NCBI GenBank assembly: GCA_016209865.1
Contig: JACQVL010000157.1
Coordinates: 1 to 10,948, forward strand
Reading direction: 5' to 3'
DNA: 10,948 nucleotides
Origin: Candidatus Latescibacterota bacterium
GTDB taxonomy: Bacteria > JAAXHH01 > JACQVL01
Under the pieces are notes generated by a model. It was not told the origin of the DNA and made no database searches. It saw only the letters and a program-made list of their open reading frames with translations. The position numbers were made by a program, and so were the translations under genes. Shown piece after piece: positions 1 through 9,094 of the stretch. The stretch's first letter is position 1; the number at the start of each line of letters is the position of its first letter.

Positions 1-623
1 CGACCGGAGCGCTGCCGCGCCGTGTGCTCGATGATGAAGTGGCCGTCGAGCATGAGCGCCTGCACCTGCGTCAACAGGGAAGCCGCCCGGTTGAGATGCC
101 CCCAGCGCGTCTGAATCATGCCCACCCGCGCATCCGCGAACCCCGGCAGGGTTTGCTTGAGGAGCGCCGGCGGCGGGAGGAAGTCCGCGTCGAAGATGGC
201 GATGAACTCCCCGCGAGCGTGCCGCAGGCCCTCGTGCAGCGCGCCCGCCTTGTAGCCATGCCGCTCCGTCCGGGGGAGGTAGTGGATGTCCACGCCCCGC
301 GCCCGGTGGCGGGCGACACACGCCGCCGCGAGCGGCGCGGTCTCGTCGGTCGAATCGTCGAGCACCTGCACCTCGAGGCGGTCGGCGGGATAGTCGAGCC
401 CGCAGACCGCGTCGATCAGTCGCTCGACGACGTGCCGTTCGTTGTACACCGGGAGCTGCACGGTCACGACCGGCCAGGCGCCGAGGGCGGCGGGGGGCGG
501 GAACCCCGGGCGTGGATATTTGTAGTACAGGAACACCATCAACGCCCGGTGGGCACCGTACAGCGCGAGCCACGCAAGGACAAAAAAATAGAGGATGAGG
601 ACAATAATGTGAAGAAAGACCAT
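1..623 (-). CDS. Family-2 glycosyltransferase, membrane-anchored (3' part lies beyond the left edge)
   Basis: The reading frame opens with ATG at 623 and stays open to the left edge, giving 207 residues of a longer protein. Residues 3-22 form a hydrophobic membrane helix. A GT-A catalytic domain starts near residue 51 (PVVTVQLPVYNE). Visible motifs are the nucleotide-binding DDSTDE at 89-94, the HGYKAGAL stretch at 122-129, the metal-binding DAD at 145-147 and QTRW at 171-174. The layout matches processive, membrane-bound GT2 enzymes of the COG1215/cellulose-synthase-like group, which transfer sugars from nucleotide donors and usually have more helices at the C-terminus (not visible here). 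The start lies 4 nt after the stop of the preceding glycosyltransferase, so the two are almost certainly cotranscribed. There is no clear Shine-Dalgarno, which fits translational coupling. The sugar and acceptor cannot be told; a role in glycosylating a product of this operon is inference. Confidence 0.88.
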   Translation of the reverse strand, partial: MVFLHIIVLILYFFVLAWLALYGAHRALMVFLYYKYPRPGFPPPAALGAWPVVTVQLPVYNERHVVERLIDAVCGLDYPADRLEVQVLDDSTDETAPLAAACVARHRARGVDIHYLPRTERHGYKAGALHEGLRHARGEFIAIFDADFLPPPALLKQTLPGFADARVGMIQTRWGHLNRAASLLTQVQALMLDGHFIIEHTARQRSG

Positions 624-627
624 TGGC

Positions 628-1371
628 TTATCGCACGACACTGTAGTATCGGATTAACTTCTCGGGCGGTACGGAGAGGGTGTAGAGCCCCCGAAGCACC
701 CACATCAAGAGTACCGTTCGCATCACACCACGGTTTTTCCATCGCCGTACGGACGTGATGACCGGCTCATCGATCCAGGCCAACCGGCCTTCCCGGCCGA
801 GCCGTCGACAAAATTCCGAATCCTCGAACAGCGGGAGGAGCGGAAACCCCCCGACCCGCTTGAACACATCACGACGCGTGTAGATCACCTGATCGCCATA
901 CGTGATGCCCAAGACGCGGGATCGGACGTTCGTCCCCCACGCGATGCACCGGTAGGCCAGACCGGGTTCGGAGAGTTGAAGACGGAACCGTCCGCCCACG
1001 GCACCATCTCGATCAATCGAGGCGATCACTACTTCCTGCCATTGCGCCGGAAGGAACGTATCCGCATGCAGAAAAATGAACACGTCACCGGTGGCCGCTG
1101 CAGCCCCAGTATTCATCTGGATCGCCCGACCGCGATGTTGATTCTGGATTACGCGGACGAAGGAGAACTGGCGTGCCACCTCGACGGTACGATCGGTGCT
1201 CCCTCCATCCACGACGATGATTTCATAGGGTTCCTTCCCCTGAAATTGTCGCAAGCATGGAGCAATCGTCCGTTCTTCATCGAGCGTCGGAACGATCACA
1301 CTGATATGTAAAGGGCTGTCCATAGGCGTTGTCAAGGAGGGTGGCTCGACTTGAGAACAACCGTAATCCAT
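628..1371 (-). CDS. TIGR04283-type family-2 glycosyltransferase (arsenosugar-associated family)
   Basis: This is a 247-residue soluble GT-A glycosyltransferase. Motifs are ISVIVPTLDEE from residue 23, VVDGGSTD ending at 60, the RGRAIQMNTGA stretch at about 80-90, FLHAD with the metal-binding HAD at 102-104, and a late FEDSEFCRRL motif. This pattern is that of TIGR04283, first named rSAM/selenodomain-associated transferase 2 and, as I recall, now described as an arsenosugar biosynthesis glycosyltransferase. The start at 1371 was chosen because GGAGGG lies 5-6 nt upstream. The frame is open further upstream, and an ATG at 1404 overlaps the permease stop as ATGA but lacks a ribosome site. The gene sits third after a radical SAM-ArsM fusion, which supports the family assignment. 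The enzyme may add a sugar to, or process, an arsenic-bearing intermediate. That reaction is inferred, not shown. Confidence 0.88.
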   Translation of the reverse strand: MDYGCSQVEPPSLTTPMDSPLHISVIVPTLDEERTIAPCLRQFQGKEPYEIIVVDGGSTDRTVEVARQFSFVRVIQNQHRGRAIQMNTGAAAATGDVFIFLHADTFLPAQWQEVVIASIDRDGAVGGRFRLQLSEPGLAYRCIAWGTNVRSRVLGITYGDQVIYTRRDVFKRVGGFPLLPLFEDSEFCRRLGREGRLAWIDEPVITSVRRWKNRGVMRTVLLMWVLRGLYTLSVPPEKLIRYYSVVR

Positions 1372-1400: not shown

Positions 1401-2546
1401 TCATAAAGATCGTGCGATCGCGTAGGCAAGCATCGCGAACCCACCCGCAGCGGGCAAGGTCACGACCCAGGCCAGCGCGATATCCCGGACCACGTTCCAC
1501 GAGACCGCGTGCGCATCCCGCTGGACGCCGATGCTGACGATCGCGGAACTGCTGACAAGCGTCGTCGAGACCGGGAGCCCGAAATGCGCGGCCACCGTGA
1601 CGAGTGCGGAGGTCGTCAGGTTTGCCGTGAGCCCATCGCGATCCTCCATCGGGGTGATCTTTTCCGCTAACGTTTCCGTGACTCGTATCCCACCGAACAG
1701 ACTGCCGAGCCCCATCGCGATCGTTGTGACCCAGAACAGCCTGACAAGGTCAGTTCCTCCAGGATGAGCACCGGCGAAGAGCACCCCGATCATCACAATC
1801 TTGGGGGCATCGTTGAGTCCTCGGGCGACACTGACTGCTCCACTGGACAGCCAGTGGAGCAACCGGGCATCAACCCGGAAGTATCGCCACGGGAGCCAGG
1901 CACACATCGTGTTCGTTGCCCGAACGACTCGTGGGACGGGCACCACAAGAGGCGCCTCGATCGTGATCATATTTTGAGCGGTCGCGGCATGGACAGGACA
2001 ACCAGCGGTCTCCAGGCCGATACACAGGCACGCATCGCCCCGTGCACCGATCATCGGTTTCATCAGACGATCCAGTCCAATTGCACCGAGGAATGCGAGG
2101 AGCGGACTCGCCAGGAGGGGAAACAGGATCTGACGCGTGAGCACGTGCCATTGAAGGTGATCCAGTCCGAAGGCATAGGCTCCTCCGAACACCAGCGCGC
2201 CGGTGAGTGCATGCGTGGTCGAGACGGGTCGACTGAACCGTGTAGCCAACAGCACCCAGCCACAGGCGCCAGCCGCAATCGCGACGGCAAACGGGAGGGT
2301 TGGCCCTCCTTGATCCATGATGATGACCCCGGTCTTGAACACCGCAACCATACGGGACGAGAACCAGACCGCCAGCCCCGCGCCGAAGACGGTGCAGAAC
2401 GTGCCCCAGAGTATCGCCCGCCGGTAGTCGGTCACCCCGCTCCCGACGAGGGTGGCGATGGCCTTCGAGACGTCATTCGCCCCGTTCGCGTATGCGAGGA
2501 AGAAGACGGCGCTGAACGCCAGCAAGTCCAAAGCCAGTACATTCAT
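1401..2546 (-). CDS. PiT-family inorganic phosphate (possibly arsenate) permease
   Basis: This 381-residue polytopic inner-membrane protein has both halves of the PiT (PF01384) inverted repeat. The signature GANDVSKA is at 22-29 and its mirror ARGLNDAPKI at 241-250. The paired motifs PVSTTHAL (107-114) and PVSTTLVSS (325-333) complete the two substrate-binding halves. PiT carriers import phosphate, or metal-phosphate, with a cation, and are a known entry route for arsenate. The polar central loop (about 168-215) contains Cys173, Cys175 and Cys183. The start at 2546 follows an AAGGAG nine nt upstream. The in-frame ATGs at 2570 and 2555 lie in or against the previous gene and were not chosen. 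It begins 14 nt after the radical SAM-ArsM stop and ends 29 nt before the glycosyltransferase, so it belongs to that operon. Family is certain; a special role in arsenate transport is inference from context. Confidence 0.93.
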   Translation of the reverse strand: MNVLALDLLAFSAVFFLAYANGANDVSKAIATLVGSGVTDYRRAILWGTFCTVFGAGLAVWFSSRMVAVFKTGVIIMDQGGPTLPFAVAIAAGACGWVLLATRFSRPVSTTHALTGALVFGGAYAFGLDHLQWHVLTRQILFPLLASPLLAFLGAIGLDRLMKPMIGARGDACLCIGLETAGCPVHAATAQNMITIEAPLVVPVPRVVRATNTMCAWLPWRYFRVDARLLHWLSSGAVSVARGLNDAPKIVMIGVLFAGAHPGGTDLVRLFWVTTIAMGLGSLFGGIRVTETLAEKITPMEDRDGLTANLTTSALVTVAAHFGLPVSTTLVSSSAIVSIGVQRDAHAVSWNVVRDIALAWVVTLPAAGGFAMLAYAIARSL

Positions 2547-2560
2547 TGTATCCATCTCCT

Positions 2561-5059
2561 TCAGCAGCACTTTCCGCCGGGGGAGCAGCAGGCGGACAGA
2601 AAATCTTCCGGGATATCACGGGTGGGGTCGGTGACCGTGAACAAACCCTGATGCGGCGGTTTCTGCAATTTTGCGGCGGTGTCGGTGCACACCTCGACCG
2701 CCTCGTCCCGTGGGAACAGATGGCCTTCTTCGTCCATGACCGCCTTGAACGGCCCCCGGTAGATGGCGGTCTGGCCGATATAGACGCATCCCGCTTTCTT
2801 CTCGTACTTGTACCCGCGGATGGTCACCGAGAAGAACTTGTAGCCTTCGACCTCTTTCCAGTACGTCTTCCGCAGCACGGACAGGCCGTAGAAGCCCGCC
2901 TGCTCGAGGAATACGAGAAATTCATCTTCCGTCAACGCCCCGCTCAGGCATTCCCCCCAGAGCCGTGCATTCGCCTGCAGATGGGACGGGACCGGGACTT
3001 CAGTCACGATGTCAGCGATGACCACACGGCCGTGGTCCTTGAGAATGCGCCACATCTCACGGAAGACTCGCTTTTTATCAGGAGACAGGTTGATCACGCA
3101 ATTCGAGGTGATCAGATCGACACTCCGATCCTCGATCGGGAGCTCCTCAAGAAAGCCCTTCCGAAACTCGACCACGTCGTACCCGAGCCGCTCCGCCACC
3201 TTGCTCTGATTCTCCACCGCGATCTGGAGCATCTGGTCAGTCATATCCACGCCGACCACCTTGCCGGTCGGGCCGACGAGCTTCGCGGCGATGAAACAAT
3301 CGATCCCGCCGCCTGAGCCGAGGTCCACGACCGTCTCGCCCTCGACGGCCTCGGCTAAACTCATCGGCGACCCGCACCCGTAGAACCGATCGAGCACCTC
3401 CTGCGGGATATGGGTGGTCAGGTTTGGGTTGTAGGTAGTCGGGCAGCACAGTTCGGCTTGCGGCTCCTCGGCGGCGTGACCATAGAATTCCCGGACGACC
3501 GTGCGCGAGGCGTCCAGGTCGAACGTCAGCACACAGTTCGAGTGGAGGGTCTCCACCCGGAGCGCGCCCGGGCGTGGCTGTCGGCCGTCCGTCCCACACA
3601 CCACCGCCCCTTCTCCCATCGCATGGTACACTGGCGGGGAGTTGTACCCGGAGTTGGTCCTGGCTCGTGCTTTGGCTTCCGTGAGCTGTCCCATCCCTTC
3701 ACGGATGAGATGCTTGTAGACCTCGCAATAGGGATCCCAGGCCAGGAGACTGCCTTCACTGCCCGTCTGACGGGAATGGAAATAACTGTGCTCGATGTCT
3801 CCGCCGCCGCAGATGAACTTCAGATGACAGGCATGGCAGACGTCCTTCTTCTGGACAGTCGCCGACCGGAACTCCTGCGCGACGCGGGAATGTAGCCAGA
3901 TGTCCTGGAGGGACTGAGTCGCCAGGTCGCCCATGTCCATCCGCTCGAACCCGGCGAACGACGCGGAGGGATAGACATGACCGTCCGCATAGACGCAGAG
4001 CGAGCCCCAGCCGGCGTGACTCAGGTCGAGCTTCACGCCTGGCATGCCGTTGATCCGGTTTCGGATCGCCTCGTAATTATCCACCGTCACCCCCACTTCA
4101 TCCCCCACCCCTCGTGCCTTCTTTGCGACCTCGATGAGCCGCTCGACCGACAGGACGAGGCCCGTTCCCCCCGGCTCCGTCGCCCGCCCACGGGCATGCA
4201 TCCACATCAAATGATGCGTCGTCAGGCCGAGTCGGCCCACGAATCGGGTAATTTCAGGCACATCATCGGCGTTGGTCGGGGTCACGACCGTCGTGATCGT
4301 CGGCGTGAACCCGAGGGCCTTGACGTTCATCAATCCATTGAGCGTCCCGCCGAAACTCCCCGGTCCACGAATCGAGTCGTTGATCTCTGGAGTGGATCCA
4401 TCCAGACTCACCTGGAGGGTCAGTTTCGACCGGTCCACCTTCGTCAGCGCCTCCAACCGGGCGTCTTTGAGGAGCATGGCGTTCGTCAGGATGACCAGCT
4501 CTGCCCGCGCGGTCACGTACGCGATCAGGTCAAAGATATCCCGCCGGACGAACGGCTCACCGCCGGTGAAATAAAACCGGGAGACGCCAAGCTCCAGCGC
4601 CTGATCGATGATGTTGATCAGGCGTTCTGTACTCAACCCGCGCACTCCTTCAGGCGATGAGGACACGAGGCAGTGGGCGCAGGCGAGGTTGCACGAATTG
4701 TTGGTATGCAGCCAGAGTTCGCTCAGGCGTTCTGGCTTCAGCACATCGCTACGTCCGGTATACGGCGGGCGAAAGAACGGGGTCGTTGACGCCAGATGAG
4801 ACCGCATGGCTTCCTTGAGAAAGTCATGGCAATGGAGCCAGGCCTTCGCCAGGTCGACGCCGTGCTCCTGCGCGTAGAGCGTGACCACCTCGCCGAACGA
4901 CCGTCGGCCGTCGAGGTAGCTCAAGATTCGAATCCCACGCTGGTCGGTCCCAATCCAGTTCGGGGCCTCGGGGTCGATGACGAACCCCACGCCATCGTAG
5001 GTCTCGACGGCCAATTGCGGGGTATGCAGAATCAAGGTTTCATTGAATTCAAGCGTCAT
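2561..5059 (-). CDS. PqqD-like/radical SAM/SPASM enzyme fused to an ArsM (AS3MT-type) arsenite S-adenosylmethionine methyltransferase
   Basis: This is an 832-residue, two-enzyme fusion. Residues 1-90 look like a PqqD-type winged-helix domain. Residues 112-310 are a radical SAM core with the CxxxCxxC cluster at Cys123, Cys127 and Cys130 (SCNLACAHC) and the SAM-binding GGEP at 166-169. A SPASM-type region with Cys355, Cys408, Cys411, Cys417 and Cys445 follows. After a linker (about 460-515), residues 515-832 align end to end with animal AS3MT and bacterial ArsM. They show VREFYG, Cys538/539, YGCGSP (Cys562), the SAM motif VVDLGSGGG, GVDMTD, SNCVINLSPDK (Cys654), WGECLSGAL (Cys704) and a Cys-rich tail ending GGKCC. 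All four arsenic-handling cysteines of AS3MT (32, 61, 156, 206) have counterparts. The start at 5059 has AAAGGAG eight to nine nt upstream. Expected role: methylation of As(III) plus a radical modification of the arsenical or another substrate. The first is strong family knowledge, the second inference. Plain ArsM is about 280-380 residues and normally stands alone. Confidence 0.93.
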   Translation of the reverse strand: MTLEFNETLILHTPQLAVETYDGVGFVIDPEAPNWIGTDQRGIRILSYLDGRRSFGEVVTLYAQEHGVDLAKAWLHCHDFLKEAMRSHLASTTPFFRPPYTGRSDVLKPERLSELWLHTNNSCNLACAHCLVSSSPEGVRGLSTERLINIIDQALELGVSRFYFTGGEPFVRRDIFDLIAYVTARAELVILTNAMLLKDARLEALTKVDRSKLTLQVSLDGSTPEINDSIRGPGSFGGTLNGLMNVKALGFTPTITTVVTPTNADDVPEITRFVGRLGLTTHHLMWMHARGRATEPGGTGLVLSVERLIEVAKKARGVGDEVGVTVDNYEAIRNRINGMPGVKLDLSHAGWGSLCVYADGHVYPSASFAGFERMDMGDLATQSLQDIWLHSRVAQEFRSATVQKKDVCHACHLKFICGGGDIEHSYFHSRQTGSEGSLLAWDPYCEVYKHLIREGMGQLTEAKARARTNSGYNSPPVYHAMGEGAVVCGTDGRQPRPGALRVETLHSNCVLTFDLDASRTVVREFYGHAAEEPQAELCCPTTYNPNLTTHIPQEVLDRFYGCGSPMSLAEAVEGETVVDLGSGGGIDCFIAAKLVGPTGKVVGVDMTDQMLQIAVENQSKVAERLGYDVVEFRKGFLEELPIEDRSVDLITSNCVINLSPDKKRVFREMWRILKDHGRVVIADIVTEVPVPSHLQANARLWGECLSGALTEDEFLVFLEQAGFYGLSVLRKTYWKEVEGYKFFSVTIRGYKYEKKAGCVYIGQTAIYRGPFKAVMDEEGHLFPRDEAVEVCTDTAAKLQKPPHQGLFTVTDPTRDIPEDFLSACCSPGGKCC

Positions 5060-5088: not shown

Positions 5089-5865
5089 CTACGGTCGTCC
5101 GCGCAGCCAGTGGATGTACGCGATGATCGCGTTCATCTGTTCGTCCGTGATGTGACCACGGAAGCGCGGCATCTTGATGGGTTCGCGTTCGATGAACCAC
5201 TTTGCGACAGGATGCTCAAGAATCCGTTTCGGTCCACCGTCGAGGATCCAGTCCCGGATCTCCTGATCATTCTGAACTAACTCCGGGAAATCGTCTCCAT
5301 TCCAGCTTGGAATATAGCCTTTAAACGACCGTACATTGGGCATCGTGCCGCGCCCCTGCGGCCCGTGACAACTGAAGCATCCGAGTTTCTTGGCCTCCTG
5401 TCGGCCCTGTTCTGCCAGCGAACTATCGGGAGGCGTGACAAAATCCGAGACCGCTTTATAGAAGGCAATGAGATCAGTCAGCTCGCGCTCTGAGATCGCG
5501 CCGCGCCAGCCTGGCATCGTGATGACCGCCTTCTGCTGTTGCCGCATCCACTCTGGATCGCTCCGGAGACGGGCTGGGGCACCATCGAGGATCCAGTCCC
5601 GGATTTCCTGCTCGTCCTTCACGTACATCATGTACGTGCCCCCTTCCCACGTCGGCGCCTCTCCGAACGTCGAGCCAGGAGCAGGCGTTCCTCGAATGCC
5701 GCCAGGTCCGTGGCAGGTAAAACATCCCTTGTTATGCGCCACCGTCCATCCGCGTTGCACGGACGAAATATTCTTCGTGCGCCACAAGTGGAACGCCAGG
5801 ACGAGGACTAGACTGCCCACGACGACCACGCCACCTGCGAGTTGCCATTTGTGCCTGCGCGTCAT
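5089..5865 (-). CDS. Membrane-anchored diheme c-type cytochrome with two duplicated modules
   Basis: This 258-residue protein has one N-terminal membrane helix (about 10-28) and two heme c attachment motifs, CFTCH at 48-52 and CFSCH at 163-167, so both hemes face the periplasm. Each motif is followed by a near-identical segment (DEQEIRDWILDGAP at 84-97, NDQEIRDWILDGGP at 199-212) and then by a likely distal Met ligand in TMPGWRG (Met117) or KMPRFRG (Met232). The protein is therefore an internal tandem duplication of a monoheme unit. ATG at 5865 is preceded by GGAGGG at a seven-nt gap; an upstream ATG at 5880 is part of that same stretch and has no ribosome site. It is first in the run of co-directional genes, 29 nt before the radical SAM-ArsM fusion. 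It probably transfers electrons to or from periplasmic partners. A direct redox role in arsenic chemistry is only suggested by position. Confidence 0.92.
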   Translation of the reverse strand: MTRRHKWQLAGGVVVVGSLVLVLAFHLWRTKNISSVQRGWTVAHNKGCFTCHGPGGIRGTPAPGSTFGEAPTWEGGTYMMYVKDEQEIRDWILDGAPARLRSDPEWMRQQQKAVITMPGWRGAISERELTDLIAFYKAVSDFVTPPDSSLAEQGRQEAKKLGCFSCHGPQGRGTMPNVRSFKGYIPSWNGDDFPELVQNDQEIRDWILDGGPKRILEHPVAKWFIEREPIKMPRFRGHITDEQMNAIIAYIHWLRGRP

Positions 5866-6115
5866 TATACGGCCCTCCATTGGAATGATCGCTTATTGAT
5901 ACAATTCTGACCCTCGAAAGAAGGCTCCCCCGGCAAAACGCGACACAGGTCACGGTAATCACGATCGTGGCATACCACATTTGCCACTCCATTCCTGTCC
6001 CTTTCCACTCCCGTTCTATGGAGGCCTGGCTGAAGCCTACCTCCTCGAATGACGGGATGAGGAGAAAAGTTCCCTCGCCGTATCGTCCACGACCGGAGAG
6101 ACGCTTATGCCAATA
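5866..6115. other. Intergenic stretch upstream of the cytochrome/ArsM operon
   Basis: This 250-nt gap separates the outer-membrane protein gene from the cytochrome gene, both on the minus strand. It must hold the operon promoter if the operon is separate from the DUF3179 unit. A possible minus-strand -10 (TATCAA, 5901-5896) has no convincing -35. A perfect 10-bp palindrome CACGATCGTG lies at 5960-5969, short enough to occur by chance. No copy of the CTGTAAG palindrome found elsewhere in the window is present. A hairpin lies at 6020-6044. A minus-strand frame starting at 5992 has a hydrophobic N-terminus but runs out of phase into the cytochrome and is not called. Confidence 0.5.
6020..6044 (-). 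other. Interrupted hairpin downstream of the outer-membrane protein gene
   Basis: GGAGG at 6020-6024 pairs with CCTCC at 6040-6044. Inside, GGC(T) at 6028-6031 pairs with (A)GCC at 6034-6037, with a small internal loop between the two helices. It lies about 75 nt beyond the stop of the beta-barrel gene on the same strand. It has no T-run on either side, so it is not a good intrinsic terminator. It may be a transcript-end or mRNA-stability structure, or chance. Confidence 0.3.
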
Positions 6116-7042
6116 TTACGGGATTTCAGACGCACGGTGGACGATCCTCGCCAGGTCGAATGTGTAGGAGACACCCACACTATACTGCGGCCCGGCGGGG
6201 ACATCCTGTCCCCGGACCGGCAGACGGACCATCCCCTCAACGGTCAGCCTATGGACCGGAGTCACCAGCACTGCCGGGGCAACAGTCAACAACTCCCGGC
6301 GCTCCCGTGTGAACGTGAACCCGAGCGACCGTGGATGGCCGCTGTAGAGGTAGTCGATCATCCCCTTGCCCGTCACCCGACGGGTGACCTGCCATCCCAA
6401 TTCTCCAAGCAGGGTCAACTCATCGCCTGGCTTATGGGCGAACCGCGTGTTCGTCCTCCGCCTCCGGTAGCCGACGGCCACGTTGGCATAGCCCGGCAGG
6501 ACGGAGAACGAGCGTCCAATCTCCCCGATGCCCTCGATGTCCCATTGCCCCTCACCAACCGGAACGACCTCAGCATCCACGTTGACGCCCCCCGTCGGCG
6601 TCTTCACACCAACCCGAACACTCGTCACGACAGGGTGCGTCGAGACCCGGTATTTCGCGTAGAGTCGAATATCCCCGACCTTCTGCGTCCGCGGGCGGGT
6701 CGGGTTGGCCCGATCGCGGAATTCCAGGCTGTAGAACGGAACCTGAACGCCGATCTCGAGCCAGTCGGTCGCCCCGTAGGCCACGTCCGTGAAGAGCGCC
6801 AACGCACGGCTCCGACCGCCAGTGAAGGGATTGAACGGGGCTCGATCATGGGCTCGACAAAATGCAAGATTCCCGGTGCAGAACTGCTGGTCGGTGGACT
6901 GGTAGAACACCGATTCTTTGACCCAAGCCTGTCCCTTCGGCAGTGTCCACGCTCCGGCTGCTACGACGGGAGGGACGAGGAGCAGGCCGATCACCCAGAA
7001 CCATCCCGTCAGAAGCAGGCGTCCACGCGGCGAGCGCGTCAT
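6116..7042 (-). CDS. Predicted outer-membrane beta-barrel protein (transporter-like, phenol-degradation MetA-type family)
   Basis: This 308-residue protein starts with a basic N-terminus and a hydrophobic signal sequence to about residue 29 (PPVVAAG then AWTLPKGQ), so it is exported. The mature part alternates polar and hydrophobic residues in many short strands with glycine and aromatic residues. Recognisable stretches are the AWTLPKGQAW start, GATDWLEIGVQVPFY, a RLYAKYRV strand, VGVKTPTGG and a near-terminal YSVGVSYTF strand. This is typical of the loosely defined transporter/MetA-type barrels (PF13557-like), whose substrates are mostly unknown. Cys55 and Cys62 are the only cysteines of the mature part and could form a disulfide. 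The start codon overlaps the DUF3179 stop as ATGA, which indicates translational coupling, so the two products probably work together at the cell envelope. A specific substrate cannot be assigned. Confidence 0.75.
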   Translation of the reverse strand: MTRSPRGRLLLTGWFWVIGLLLVPPVVAAGAWTLPKGQAWVKESVFYQSTDQQFCTGNLAFCRAHDRAPFNPFTGGRSRALALFTDVAYGATDWLEIGVQVPFYSLEFRDRANPTRPRTQKVGDIRLYAKYRVSTHPVVTSVRVGVKTPTGGVNVDAEVVPVGEGQWDIEGIGEIGRSFSVLPGYANVAVGYRRRRTNTRFAHKPGDELTLLGELGWQVTRRVTGKGMIDYLYSGHPRSLGFTFTRERRELLTVAPAVLVTPVHRLTVEGMVRLPVRGQDVPAGPQYSVGVSYTFDLARIVHRASEIP

Positions 7043-8169
7043 AGGGCGTACACCGCCGTCGTCGGCCAGAACGCCGCCCAGGCAAACCAGAAGGCGTTAT
7101 ATGCGGTCGAAATTCTGGTGAGCGTTTTTCCGTTCAGCGGCCCGTCGATGGCTTTGCCCTCGACCGTCCACACCGTCCCGGTCTCCTGATCCTGTAGCCG
7201 AAACGGTACTCCTCCGTCGACCACCCTGAACGTGAGAGACTGGCCGTTGACCCGGCGATCATAGGAGAGGGCCAACCGTCCAGCCTGATCGAACACCACC
7301 AGCACGTCACGACCGACGATGGCGTCATTGACAGCCGCCCGTGTCCCAAGACTACTGAACGGATACGCTTTGACCAGCCCACTGGTGAGGATCCCGTGGA
7401 TCATCCGCTTCGGGGGAAACCGTGTATCGAGCGACCGATTGAGGGGAAACAGCGGTGGAGTATTTTCAAACTGATAGCTGCCATACGGATATTGAGTCAA
7501 CAGTCGGTTGGAATTCGACCGGGCGATGACCAGCGTCTCCGGATGGAGTTGTTTCCACAGCCTCCAGGTCACTTCTGTGGCAGGGATCATCTCCAGATGA
7601 TCGCGCGGGGTGGTGATGTCAAACACGAGGCCGGTGCCGGTCAACGGGCAGAAGGTCACGGAGACCCGCTGGCCGCCGACCTGATCGTTGACGATCTCAT
7701 GCCACCAGAGCACATTATGCGGGTATGCCCGCGTCTCCCCGTTCAGGACAAGTCCGATGACCAGATCATCATCCGCCAGGTAATCCACCCCGCTCGCCGT
7801 CACGAACGAGGGATTGGTGAGCGCAGGAATATCGTCGATCTTCGGCCCCCCGGAGGCGAGTTGATCCTTCGGGAACGTCCCGTAGACGGGAAAGTCTGGT
7901 GCATCGATGGTGGTAAAGTATATCTGCGGGATGAGCACCAGCTTAGACGCTCGGAGATCGGATCGACTCCGGTCATACATGACGAGGTTATTGTTGAACA
8001 GAAGCCCGGATACTCCGAACCCGACGGCTCCGGCCCGAGACGGGTCGTCCATGGGGGTGCCCGTGTCTGGCGTGGTGGGAGTCGAGGGGTTCGCGTTGTC
8101 CTGACACCCCATCCCTCCCATCGACAGCAAGAGGACGAGCACGATCAGACGAGTCGGAGAAGTCATCAT
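7039..8169 (-). CDS. DUF3179 domain lipoprotein with a displaced conserved segment
   Basis: This 376-residue protein has a signal sequence ending LSMGGMGC, with a plausible lipobox Cys at residue 22, and then a Thr/Pro-rich linker, so it is probably a lipid-anchored periplasmic protein. The DUF3179 (PF11376) hallmarks are clear: DDIPALTNPSFV (112-123), GETRAYPHNVLWWHEIVND (144-162), VTFCPLTGTGLVFD (171-184) and a C-terminal module ending AYNAFWFAWAAFWP. The function of DUF3179 is not established. Unusually, the FGVSGLLFNNNLVMYDR segment stands at 51-67, before the domain, instead of between VFD and LEMIPATEVTW, where this protein has only a few residues. The start at 8169 follows GGGAGG by seven nt. 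It is the first gene of a two-gene unit, and its promoter region carries a Crp/Fnr-like palindrome and a matching -10 box. The export assignment is fairly sure; the role is unknown. Confidence 0.88.
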   Translation of the reverse strand: MMTSPTRLIVLVLLLSMGGMGCQDNANPSTPTTPDTGTPMDDPSRAGAVGFGVSGLLFNNNLVMYDRSRSDLRASKLVLIPQIYFTTIDAPDFPVYGTFPKDQLASGGPKIDDIPALTNPSFVTASGVDYLADDDLVIGLVLNGETRAYPHNVLWWHEIVNDQVGGQRVSVTFCPLTGTGLVFDITTPRDHLEMIPATEVTWRLWKQLHPETLVIARSNSNRLLTQYPYGSYQFENTPPLFPLNRSLDTRFPPKRMIHGILTSGLVKAYPFSSLGTRAAVNDAIVGRDVLVVFDQAGRLALSYDRRVNGQSLTFRVVDGGVPFRLQDQETGTVWTVEGKAIDGPLNGKTLTRISTAYNAFWFAWAAFWPTTAVYAL

Positions 8170-8193
8170 AAGTTTTCCTCCCGATTGGGAGCG

Positions 8194-8220
8194 GTTGAAC
8201 AGTCTCAACAATCTTGTTGA
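8194..8220. repeat. Two overlapping GTTGA/TCAAC inverted repeats in the leader of the DUF3179 gene
   Basis: GTTGA (8194-8198), N6, TCAAC (8205-8209) is one dyad. The same TCAAC then begins a second, perfect dyad, TCAACAATCTTGTTGA (8205-8220). Three half-sites are thus spaced at 11-nt intervals, one helical turn. They lie downstream of the predicted transcription start of the DUF3179 gene. They could form a repressor operator (TTGA-N6-TCAA recalls FNR-type half-sites) or two mutually exclusive RNA hairpins. Only the symmetry is seen directly. Confidence 0.45.
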
Positions 8221-8242
8221 CTGAAGTAAGGATTCATGATAT

Positions 8243-8248
8243 AGTATA
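8243..8248 (-). promoter_or_regulatory. Predicted -10 box (TATACT) of the DUF3179 promoter
   Basis: Read on the minus strand, TATACT matches five of six bases of the sigma-70 TATAAT consensus. It stands exactly 20 nt downstream of the CTTACAG end of the palindrome at 8269-8286. The start of transcription would be near 8236. There is no good -35 hexamer, as expected for an activator-dependent promoter. The same arrangement is found at 9189-9232. Confidence 0.6.
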
Positions 8249-8268
8249 CTCATGGATTAGTATTGTAT

Positions 8269-8286: not shown

Positions 8287-8407
8287 TTTGATTGTACGTA
8301 TGGGGAACCTTTACCCGGACTGGCTCGTTGTATACGCAGCAGTATAGGGGGTGCTTCCAGACGAGAGTCTTTCTTCTGCGTGTCATCGAGTGGACAAGGG
8401 GGAGATG

Positions 8408-9094
8408 ATGCCCGACCGGCTCTGGTACCTGAAACAGATTAACATCTTTTCCCAGATGGACGAGGCCATGTTTCGTCAACTCAACGACATGATGGTTGAG
8501 AAGACGCTGCAGAAGAAAGCCATCGTCTACATGCCCGATGATCCGAGCGAGTATGTCTATTGTTTGAAGCGTGGGCGGGTCAAAATCTCCAAAATCTCGG
8601 AAGAGGGGAAAGAGATCACGATCACGATCTTAGAGCCGGGCGAGATCTTCGGGGAGCTTTCCCTCATCGATTCAGGACCGCGCGAGACGATCGCGGAAGT
8701 GATCGATGATGCCTATCTCTGCATCGTCCGACGAACCGATTTCGAGCGTCTGATGGCCCAGGCTCCGGACATGGCGCTCAGGGTGACGAAACTGATCGGG
8801 TTGCGCCTGCGGGCGATCGAGAACAAGATGGAAGACCTCGTCTTCCGGGACGTCCCGGCCCGGCTCGCCCGGTTGCTCCTCCGATTGGCCCACGACCACG
8901 GCAAACCGGCCCCATCGGGCGGGACGCTGATCGACCTCAAGCTGTCGCAGCATGAATTCGCCTGTTTGATCGGCTCAACGCGGGAGACGACGAGTCTCTT
9001 CCTGAACGAATTCAAGCGGGACGGCCTGATCGATCTGGTCCATCGCAGGATTGTCGTGCTCGACCCCCACAGCCTTGAAGCACGAGGCGTCTGA
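8408..9094 (+). CDS. Crp/Fnr-family transcriptional regulator
   Basis: This 228-residue cytosolic DNA-binding protein has an N-terminal cyclic-nucleotide-binding-type beta-roll (about 12-120), a long dimerisation helix (about 120-147) and a C-terminal winged helix-turn-helix (about 150-222). The HTH reads LSQHEFACLIGSTRETTSLFLNEFKRDGLI, with the usual RET at the start of the recognition helix. In the ligand pocket, GELSLIDSGPRETIAEV (82-98) keeps GEL and an Arg, but the following Ser/Thr-type residue is Glu, so cAMP binding is doubtful. Cysteines are only at 52, 105 and 186, which does not fit an FNR-type iron-sulfur sensor. AGGGGGAG lies just upstream. ATG at 8408 gives a better gap than the adjacent ATG at 8405; the frame also reaches back to a GTG at 8351 without a ribosome site. 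It is divergent from the DUF3179 unit, and matching palindromes on both sides make it the likely regulator of its neighbours. The signal is unknown. Confidence 0.92.
   Translation: MPDRLWYLKQINIFSQMDEAMFRQLNDMMVEKTLQKKAIVYMPDDPSEYVYCLKRGRVKISKISEEGKEITITILEPGEIFGELSLIDSGPRETIAEVIDDAYLCIVRRTDFERLMAQAPDMALRVTKLIGLRLRAIENKMEDLVFRDVPARLARLLLRLAHDHGKPAPSGGTLIDLKLSQHEFACLIGSTRETTSLFLNEFKRDGLIDLVHRRIVVLDPHSLEARGV

Follow-up and report, generated by a model that had tools for sequence, protein, structure and literature searches.

A radical SAM-ArsM fusion protein as a candidate single-chain organoarsenical synthase in diverse bacteria

The arsenosugar pathway cited for Synechocystis in PMC8552651 pairs the methyltransferase ArsM with the radical SAM enzyme ArsS, and the arsinothricin pathway, which yields an amino-acid arsenical, uses ArsL and ArsM encoded by separate genes, with ArsQ as the exporter (PMC8552651). 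The locus described here, on a contig of a Candidatus Latescibacterota bacterium, raises the question of what an ArsM does when a radical SAM enzyme is part of the same polypeptide. We found no published radical SAM-ArsM fusion in the open-access papers searched, an absence that is weak evidence, nor did we find described there any bacterial arsenosugar or arsenolipid route other than ArsM with ArsS. ArsM selenoprotein fusions do exist (ArsM_AhpD_UU and ArsM_DUF2284_UU; NCBIfam; PMC13188914) and likewise join ArsM to another domain, but their partners are other domains, without radical SAM; a survey of ArsM proteins names only a SelD fusion (PMC5552862).

Within the window, by which we mean the whole 10,948-nucleotide stretch that was analysed, the fusion is one open frame of 832 amino acids on the minus strand (5059-2561). 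It runs from an ATG at 5059, preceded by AAAGGAGATACTTGT with the ribosome-binding site AAGGAG, to a TGA at 2563-2561. The original observation of a single uninterrupted frame is upheld for this strand, whereas stops interrupt the plus strand of 2561-5059. Its cysteine numbering (C123/C127/C130, C538/C539, C562, C654, C704) is also correct, and the domain search that it proposed returned methyltransferase domains and, above their Pfam cut-offs, Radical_SAM and SPASM, with PqqD below its cut-off. The domain order is PqqD-like, radical SAM, SPASM and a full ArsM, laid out as follows (architectures A, B and C are defined below):

2561..5059, minus strand: rSAM-ArsM fusion gene (open frame, ribosome-binding site, full-length fused homologues)
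4790..5032, minus strand: PqqD/RRE-like N-terminal domain, residues ~10-90 (weak PF05402 match, structural alignment)
4160..4738, minus strand: radical SAM core, residues ~108-300 (PF04055, 77 bits)
4670..4693, minus strand: CX3CX2C cluster motif, Cys123/127/130 (invariant, 40/40)
3710..4042, minus strand: SPASM/twitch domain, with Cys355 and the putative auxiliary-cluster residues Cys408/411/417/445 (PF13186)
2564..3547, minus strand: ArsM half, residues 505-832, with Cys-rich C-terminal tail (PRK11873 and CrArsM/CmArsM/AS3MT matches)
3443..3448, minus strand: Cys538-Cys539, in the position of CmArsM Cys44 (invariant in A and C, lost in B)
3374..3376, minus strand: Cys562, counterpart of CmArsM Cys72 (51/51)
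3098..3100, minus strand: Cys654, counterpart of CmArsM Cys174 (51/51)
2948..2950, minus strand: Cys704, counterpart of CmArsM Cys224 (51/51)

The joining of the two halves is genuine and widespread. Full-length fused homologues with 35-76% identity occur in many genomes, which excludes chance and assembly error, and a merged-gene error or chimera is likewise excluded by 41 independent loci with the same architecture. The first such homologues came from MAGs labelled Zixiibacteriota, Acidobacteria, Planctomycetota, Gemmatimonadetes and Candidatus Anammoxibacter. The census across genomes that had been suggested for this architecture found those 41 loci of the window type (architecture A), a few of them truncated by contig ends, in at least five bacterial lineages. 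Of 396 Acidobacteriota genomes sampled, 18 carry the fusion (14 with architecture A and 4 with architecture B); for the 249 Gemmatimonadota the count is 7, and for the 392 Planctomycetota it is 25 (16 A and 9 C). The order to which the window belongs contributes two more genomes, as does another small phylum. One A-type fusion (L110:5380-7900, minus strand) has an in-frame TAG after LRLQI, for which a pseudogene, a sequencing error and recoding are candidate explanations.

Architecture B, seen at Acidobacteriota loci L067, L068, L069 and L071, is an rSAM-ArsM chain with a C-terminal DUF5714 domain, as checked in L068, where this domain resembles the double selenoprotein MbdU. Cys538/539 and Cys355 are lost in B, and arsenosugar-type neighbours are absent; its role may therefore differ from that of A. 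In architecture C (Planctomycetota loci L120-L125; a contig of the C genome G795 is 4.4 Mb in length), the same type of ArsM is fused to a shorter radical SAM part whose end is rich in cysteines, and there is no PqqD-like domain.

An AlphaFold2 model of the fusion (38 sequences; mean pLDDT 87.9, pTM 0.85) has its best solved matches in ArsM/AS3MT over residues ~536-817 and in radical SAM/SPASM maturases over residues ~9-476. At the N-terminus, the PqqD match is weak (PF05402, 16 bits, below the Pfam cut-off of 23.4) and W35 of this domain is invariant; the model aligns with the maturases 8vpo (TigE) and 5wgg (CteB) from residue 9 or 14 onward, which supports a PqqD/RRE-like identity. The order PqqD-like, radical SAM, SPASM is shared with the RRE-containing maturases CteB (5wgg), SuiB (5v1t) and SkfB (6efn) and with PqqE (6c8v), from all of which the fusion differs in carrying an ArsM, in the loss of auxiliary ligands in one clade, and in that no precursor peptide was found.

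These structural matches to CteB, SuiB and SkfB, together with the SPASM domain and the PqqD-like N-terminus, are what speaks for a peptide-directed enzyme, in which the PqqD/RRE-like domain would bind a leader peptide and methylated arsenic would be placed on the peptide; a peptide-linked arsenical had been among the products first suggested. However, no small ORF or precursor peptide gene is conserved within 1.2 kb of the fusion at the A and C loci, there is almost no intergenic space on either side of it in the window, and architecture C does without a PqqD-like domain altogether. The small ORFs that do recur near the fusion resemble shadow ORFs or the ends of neighbouring genes and were rejected as precursor peptides. 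The idea is weakened by the lack of a conserved small peptide gene within this distance and of a PqqD-like domain in one related architecture, and we now consider it very improbable.

In the radical SAM half, Radical_SAM (PF04055) scores 77 bits against a Pfam cut-off of 29.5 and SPASM (PF13186) 35 bits against 21.5, and every full-length sequence of A and B, 40 of 40, has Cys123/127/130. This half should cleave SAM reductively. Cys355 is kept in 34 of 36 A sequences. Cys408, 411, 417 and 445, all present in the window protein, covary: all four are missing in 10 of the 36 A sequences, which make up one clade of the radical SAM tree (support 99), and also in B. Since they covary, they are probably ligands of a single auxiliary cluster that has been lost in that clade and in B, and their joint loss makes the cluster appear dispensable.

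The nearest NCBIfam models for this half are Rv1681, NirJ2 and mycofactocin (MftC-type), all far below cut-off. It had been described at the outset as unlike ArsS, and this is borne out: the ArsS model TIGR04167, with a cut-off of 300 bits, gives 56.8 bits, which rules out membership of that family, and a Pfam scan of the fusion found no match to DUF3641, the C-terminal domain of ArsS. As the half is no nearer to ArsS (hhalign E ~1e-18) than to PqqE (~1e-20), its homology does not imply 5'-deoxyadenosyl transfer.

The C-terminal half contains methyltransferase domains in Pfam, and among solved structures it is matched best by CrArsM, CmArsM and human AS3MT. The ArsM-fold match has a Foldseek E of 2.7e-24 and, against 6cx6, a Z of 29.3 (rmsd 7.4 over 280 aligned residues). 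Scores with ArsM models all lie below their cut-offs: 240.9 bits with the NCBIfam arsenite methyltransferase model PRK11873, just under its cut-off of 263, 230 bits with the arsinothricin ArsM model and 180 bits with the arsenosugar ArsM model. CmArsM binds As(III) through Cys72/174/224 (PMC5552862), and the corresponding Cys562/654/704 are kept in 51 of 51 sequences checked. Cys538/539 are present in all A and C sequences and missing from B; their assignment to the Cys44 position was made with a CmArsM fragment that does not include Cys44, and CrArsM has a cysteine at the 538 column. The fusion thus has in common with ArsM/AS3MT (CmArsM 4fr0, CrArsM 5evj, human 8xt7) the fold, the SAM site and the cysteines that bind As(III), but differs from them in the attached radical SAM enzyme, the conserved Cys509, Cys758 and Cys791, and the Cys-rich tail. 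This half groups with the arsenite methyltransferases, as originally claimed, and its prediction as an As(III) methyltransferase is well supported by residues, fold and phylogeny.

In that phylogeny, the ArsM halves of all three architectures fall together (SH-aLRT 86), and a branch at 95 sets A to one side; the group is separate from canonical, algal and arsenosugar ArsMs and from the long ArsMs at true ArsS loci. By hhalign, the radical SAM half of C is nearest to its counterpart in A (E ~1e-33) and farther from ArsS (~1e-15). A single ancestral fusion would be the simplest reading of these relationships. A quick radical SAM tree placed C with ArsS, but this placement carried a long-branch flag and was not relied on.

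Around the fusion in the window, the order of transcription on the same strand is DUF3179, putative outer-membrane protein, cytochrome c, fusion, PiT, TIGR04283 and family-2 glycosyltransferase, with the PiT gene starting 14 bases after the fusion stop and having its own ribosome-binding site:

7039..8253, minus strand: DUF3179 protein (PF11376, 254 bits), a recurrent neighbour of the fusion
6116..7042, minus strand: putative outer-membrane beta-barrel protein, in the operon, without Pfam or NCBIfam match
5089..5880, minus strand: two-domain (diheme-type) cytochrome c, upstream of the fusion (PF00034, two stretches)
1401..2546, minus strand: PiT/PHO4-type transporter (PF01384, 200 bits)
628..1371, minus strand: TIGR04283 'arsenosugar biosynthesis glycosyltransferase' (249.8 bits, cut-off 182)
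1..641, minus strand: family-2 glycosyltransferase, truncated by the contig end (195 bits to the CelA-like glycosyltransferase of other fusion loci)
8351..9094, plus strand: CRP-type regulator, divergent

Several of these genes recur. With bit-score thresholds set after the score lists had been seen (representatives of both glycosyltransferase families pass the NCBIfam cut-offs), TIGR04282 or TIGR04283, for which 'arsenosugar' is a family name and not a tested function, lies near the fusion at 17/41 A and 4/6 C loci, near ArsS at 5/21 loci, and in 0/20 control regions drawn from fusion-bearing or ArsS-bearing genomes. A PiT gene is near 20/41 A, 2/6 C and 1/21 ArsS loci (0/20 controls), and DUF3179 near 11/41 A and 2/6 C loci (1/20 controls). 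Fusion loci and ArsS loci alike have genes for DUF547, VTT and a MerA-like FAD oxidoreductase; genes for GT87, the CelA-like glycosyltransferase and DUF3179 recur at fusion loci, and none was seen at the 21 ArsS loci examined. TIGR04283 and TIGR04282 are apparently one chain at L060:16148-17530, L065:7309-8757, L114:6618-7964, L120:8066-9439 and L121:2798-4159. A 619-aa frame beside the rSAM-ArsM gene at L105 (2388-4247, plus strand) matches both PiT and DUF547 and is possibly a transporter-DUF547 fusion. At L018 (296-1816, minus strand), an ArsC-type arsenate reductase and an ACR3 arsenite exporter share one frame ~7 kb from the fusion.

Across whole genomes and at the curated cut-offs, TIGR04282, TIGR04283 or both are present in 42 of the 43 fusion genomes and in all 10 ArsS genomes, compared with 6 of the 27 comparison genomes; the Fisher p of 1.5e-11 for the association with the fusion is uncorrected for phylogeny and inflated, because the genomes are phylogenetically non-independent. 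ArsS is present in two of the six comparison genomes that carry these families. Of the 43 fusion genomes, 41 lack it and two, both of architecture A (G060 and G379), encode it as well. The idea that in Acidobacteriota the fusion and ArsS exclude each other found no support: the two co-occur in 2 of 14 A genomes against 2.3 expected, showing neither avoidance nor attraction.

One alternative is that the fusion serves detoxification only, with an ArsM half that methylates As(III) and a radical SAM half that is a redox or regulatory partner and forms no C-As bond. The intact ArsM residues would suit such a role, as would the ArsC-ACR3 gene near one fusion. Against this, the genome of the window already encodes a separate ArsM homologue, the radical SAM motif residues are invariant, and the associated genes are glycosyltransferases, ACR3 having been detected near just one fusion. 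We think a purely detoxifying role improbable.

Instead, we favour, at a probability of roughly 60%, the reading that the fusion is a single-chain organoarsenical synthase that replaces ArsM and ArsS, most likely transfers a 5'-deoxyadenosyl group, and feeds arsenosugar or arsenolipid synthesis. Because it recurs beside arsenosugar-type sugar-transfer genes in at least five lineages, it probably makes arsenic-sugar compounds, and since it has the glycosyltransferase companions of ArsM and ArsS in genomes without ArsS, it would supply the same type of intermediate. In this respect the genome context adds to the original prediction, pointing specifically to the arsenosugar branch. We propose that the fusion works like ArsM with ArsS yet stands outside the ArsS family. 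The two systems have in common an ArsM paired with a radical SAM enzyme, as well as TIGR04282/TIGR04283, DUF547, VTT and MerA-like genes; they differ in that the fusion is one chain, not two, and that its radical SAM half is of the PqqD/SPASM type, without DUF3641.

What the data show are the architecture, which residues are conserved, the phylogeny and the gene association; that arsenic is the substrate of both halves we infer, and likewise the transferred group and the order of steps. In a rough scheme, Cys562/654/704 of the ArsM half would bind As(III) for SAM-dependent methylation, and a second SAM would be cleaved in the radical SAM half at the [4Fe-4S] cluster of Cys123/127/130. A SAM-derived carbon group, likeliest 5'-deoxyadenosyl by comparison with the ArsS route, would then be joined to the methylated As(III), and the TIGR04282/TIGR04283 glycosyltransferases could turn the product into an arsenosugar or arsenolipid. 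The fusion would thereby perform the work of both ArsM and ArsS in ArsS-free genomes, and the PiT transporter may take up arsenate or phosphate. In the closest relative (L020, 76%), a nucleoside phosphorylase gene lies immediately upstream of the PiT and fusion genes; this single case, found at that locus only, fits the removal of adenine from a deoxyadenosyl-arsenical ahead of glycosyl transfer.

The transferred group could also be another one, such as 3-amino-3-carboxypropyl (as with ArsL) or a carbon group not derived from SAM, giving a new arsenical that is then decorated by glycosyltransferases. Like ArsL with ArsM, the fusion combines a radical SAM enzyme with an ArsM predicted to act on As(III); its ArsM half scores higher with the arsinothricin than with the arsenosugar ArsM model, its radical SAM half is closest to Rv1681, NirJ2 and MftC-type models and not to ArsS, and GT87, CelA-like glycosyltransferase and DUF3179 set its loci apart from the ArsS loci. 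However, ArsMs of true ArsS loci likewise prefer the arsinothricin model (334-357 bits; L161:10655-11818, minus strand; L176:6485-8053, plus strand; L037:7935-9131, plus strand), so that this score cannot discriminate; the model's name is unsafe as a guide to the product, and we dropped it for that purpose. No ArsQ-type (GntP) neighbour was noticed, and unlike the separate ArsL and ArsM genes with their ArsQ, the fusion sits among glycosyltransferases. On balance we hold transfer of a different group to be unlikely. A broader proposal, that the C-As bond is formed by radical chemistry unlike that of ArsS or ArsL and leads to an undescribed class of organoarsenicals, for example glycan- or lipid-linked, in phyla without reported chemistry of this kind, is conceivable but somewhat doubtful.

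Arsenosugars and arsenolipids are major organic forms of arsenic in many waters. If a single-chain synthase of the kind that we favour is indeed what these loci encode, Acidobacteriota, Gemmatimonadota, Planctomycetota (including anammox bacteria) and others would have a one-gene route to such compounds, and more organisms of soil, lakes and groundwater would count as likely producers. The PiT, TIGR04282/83, DUF547, DUF3179 and GT87 genes are candidates for further steps. Finally, the fusion offers a single protein in which to study the making of C-As bonds, with natural variants in which either the PqqD domain or the putative auxiliary iron-sulphur cluster is missing.
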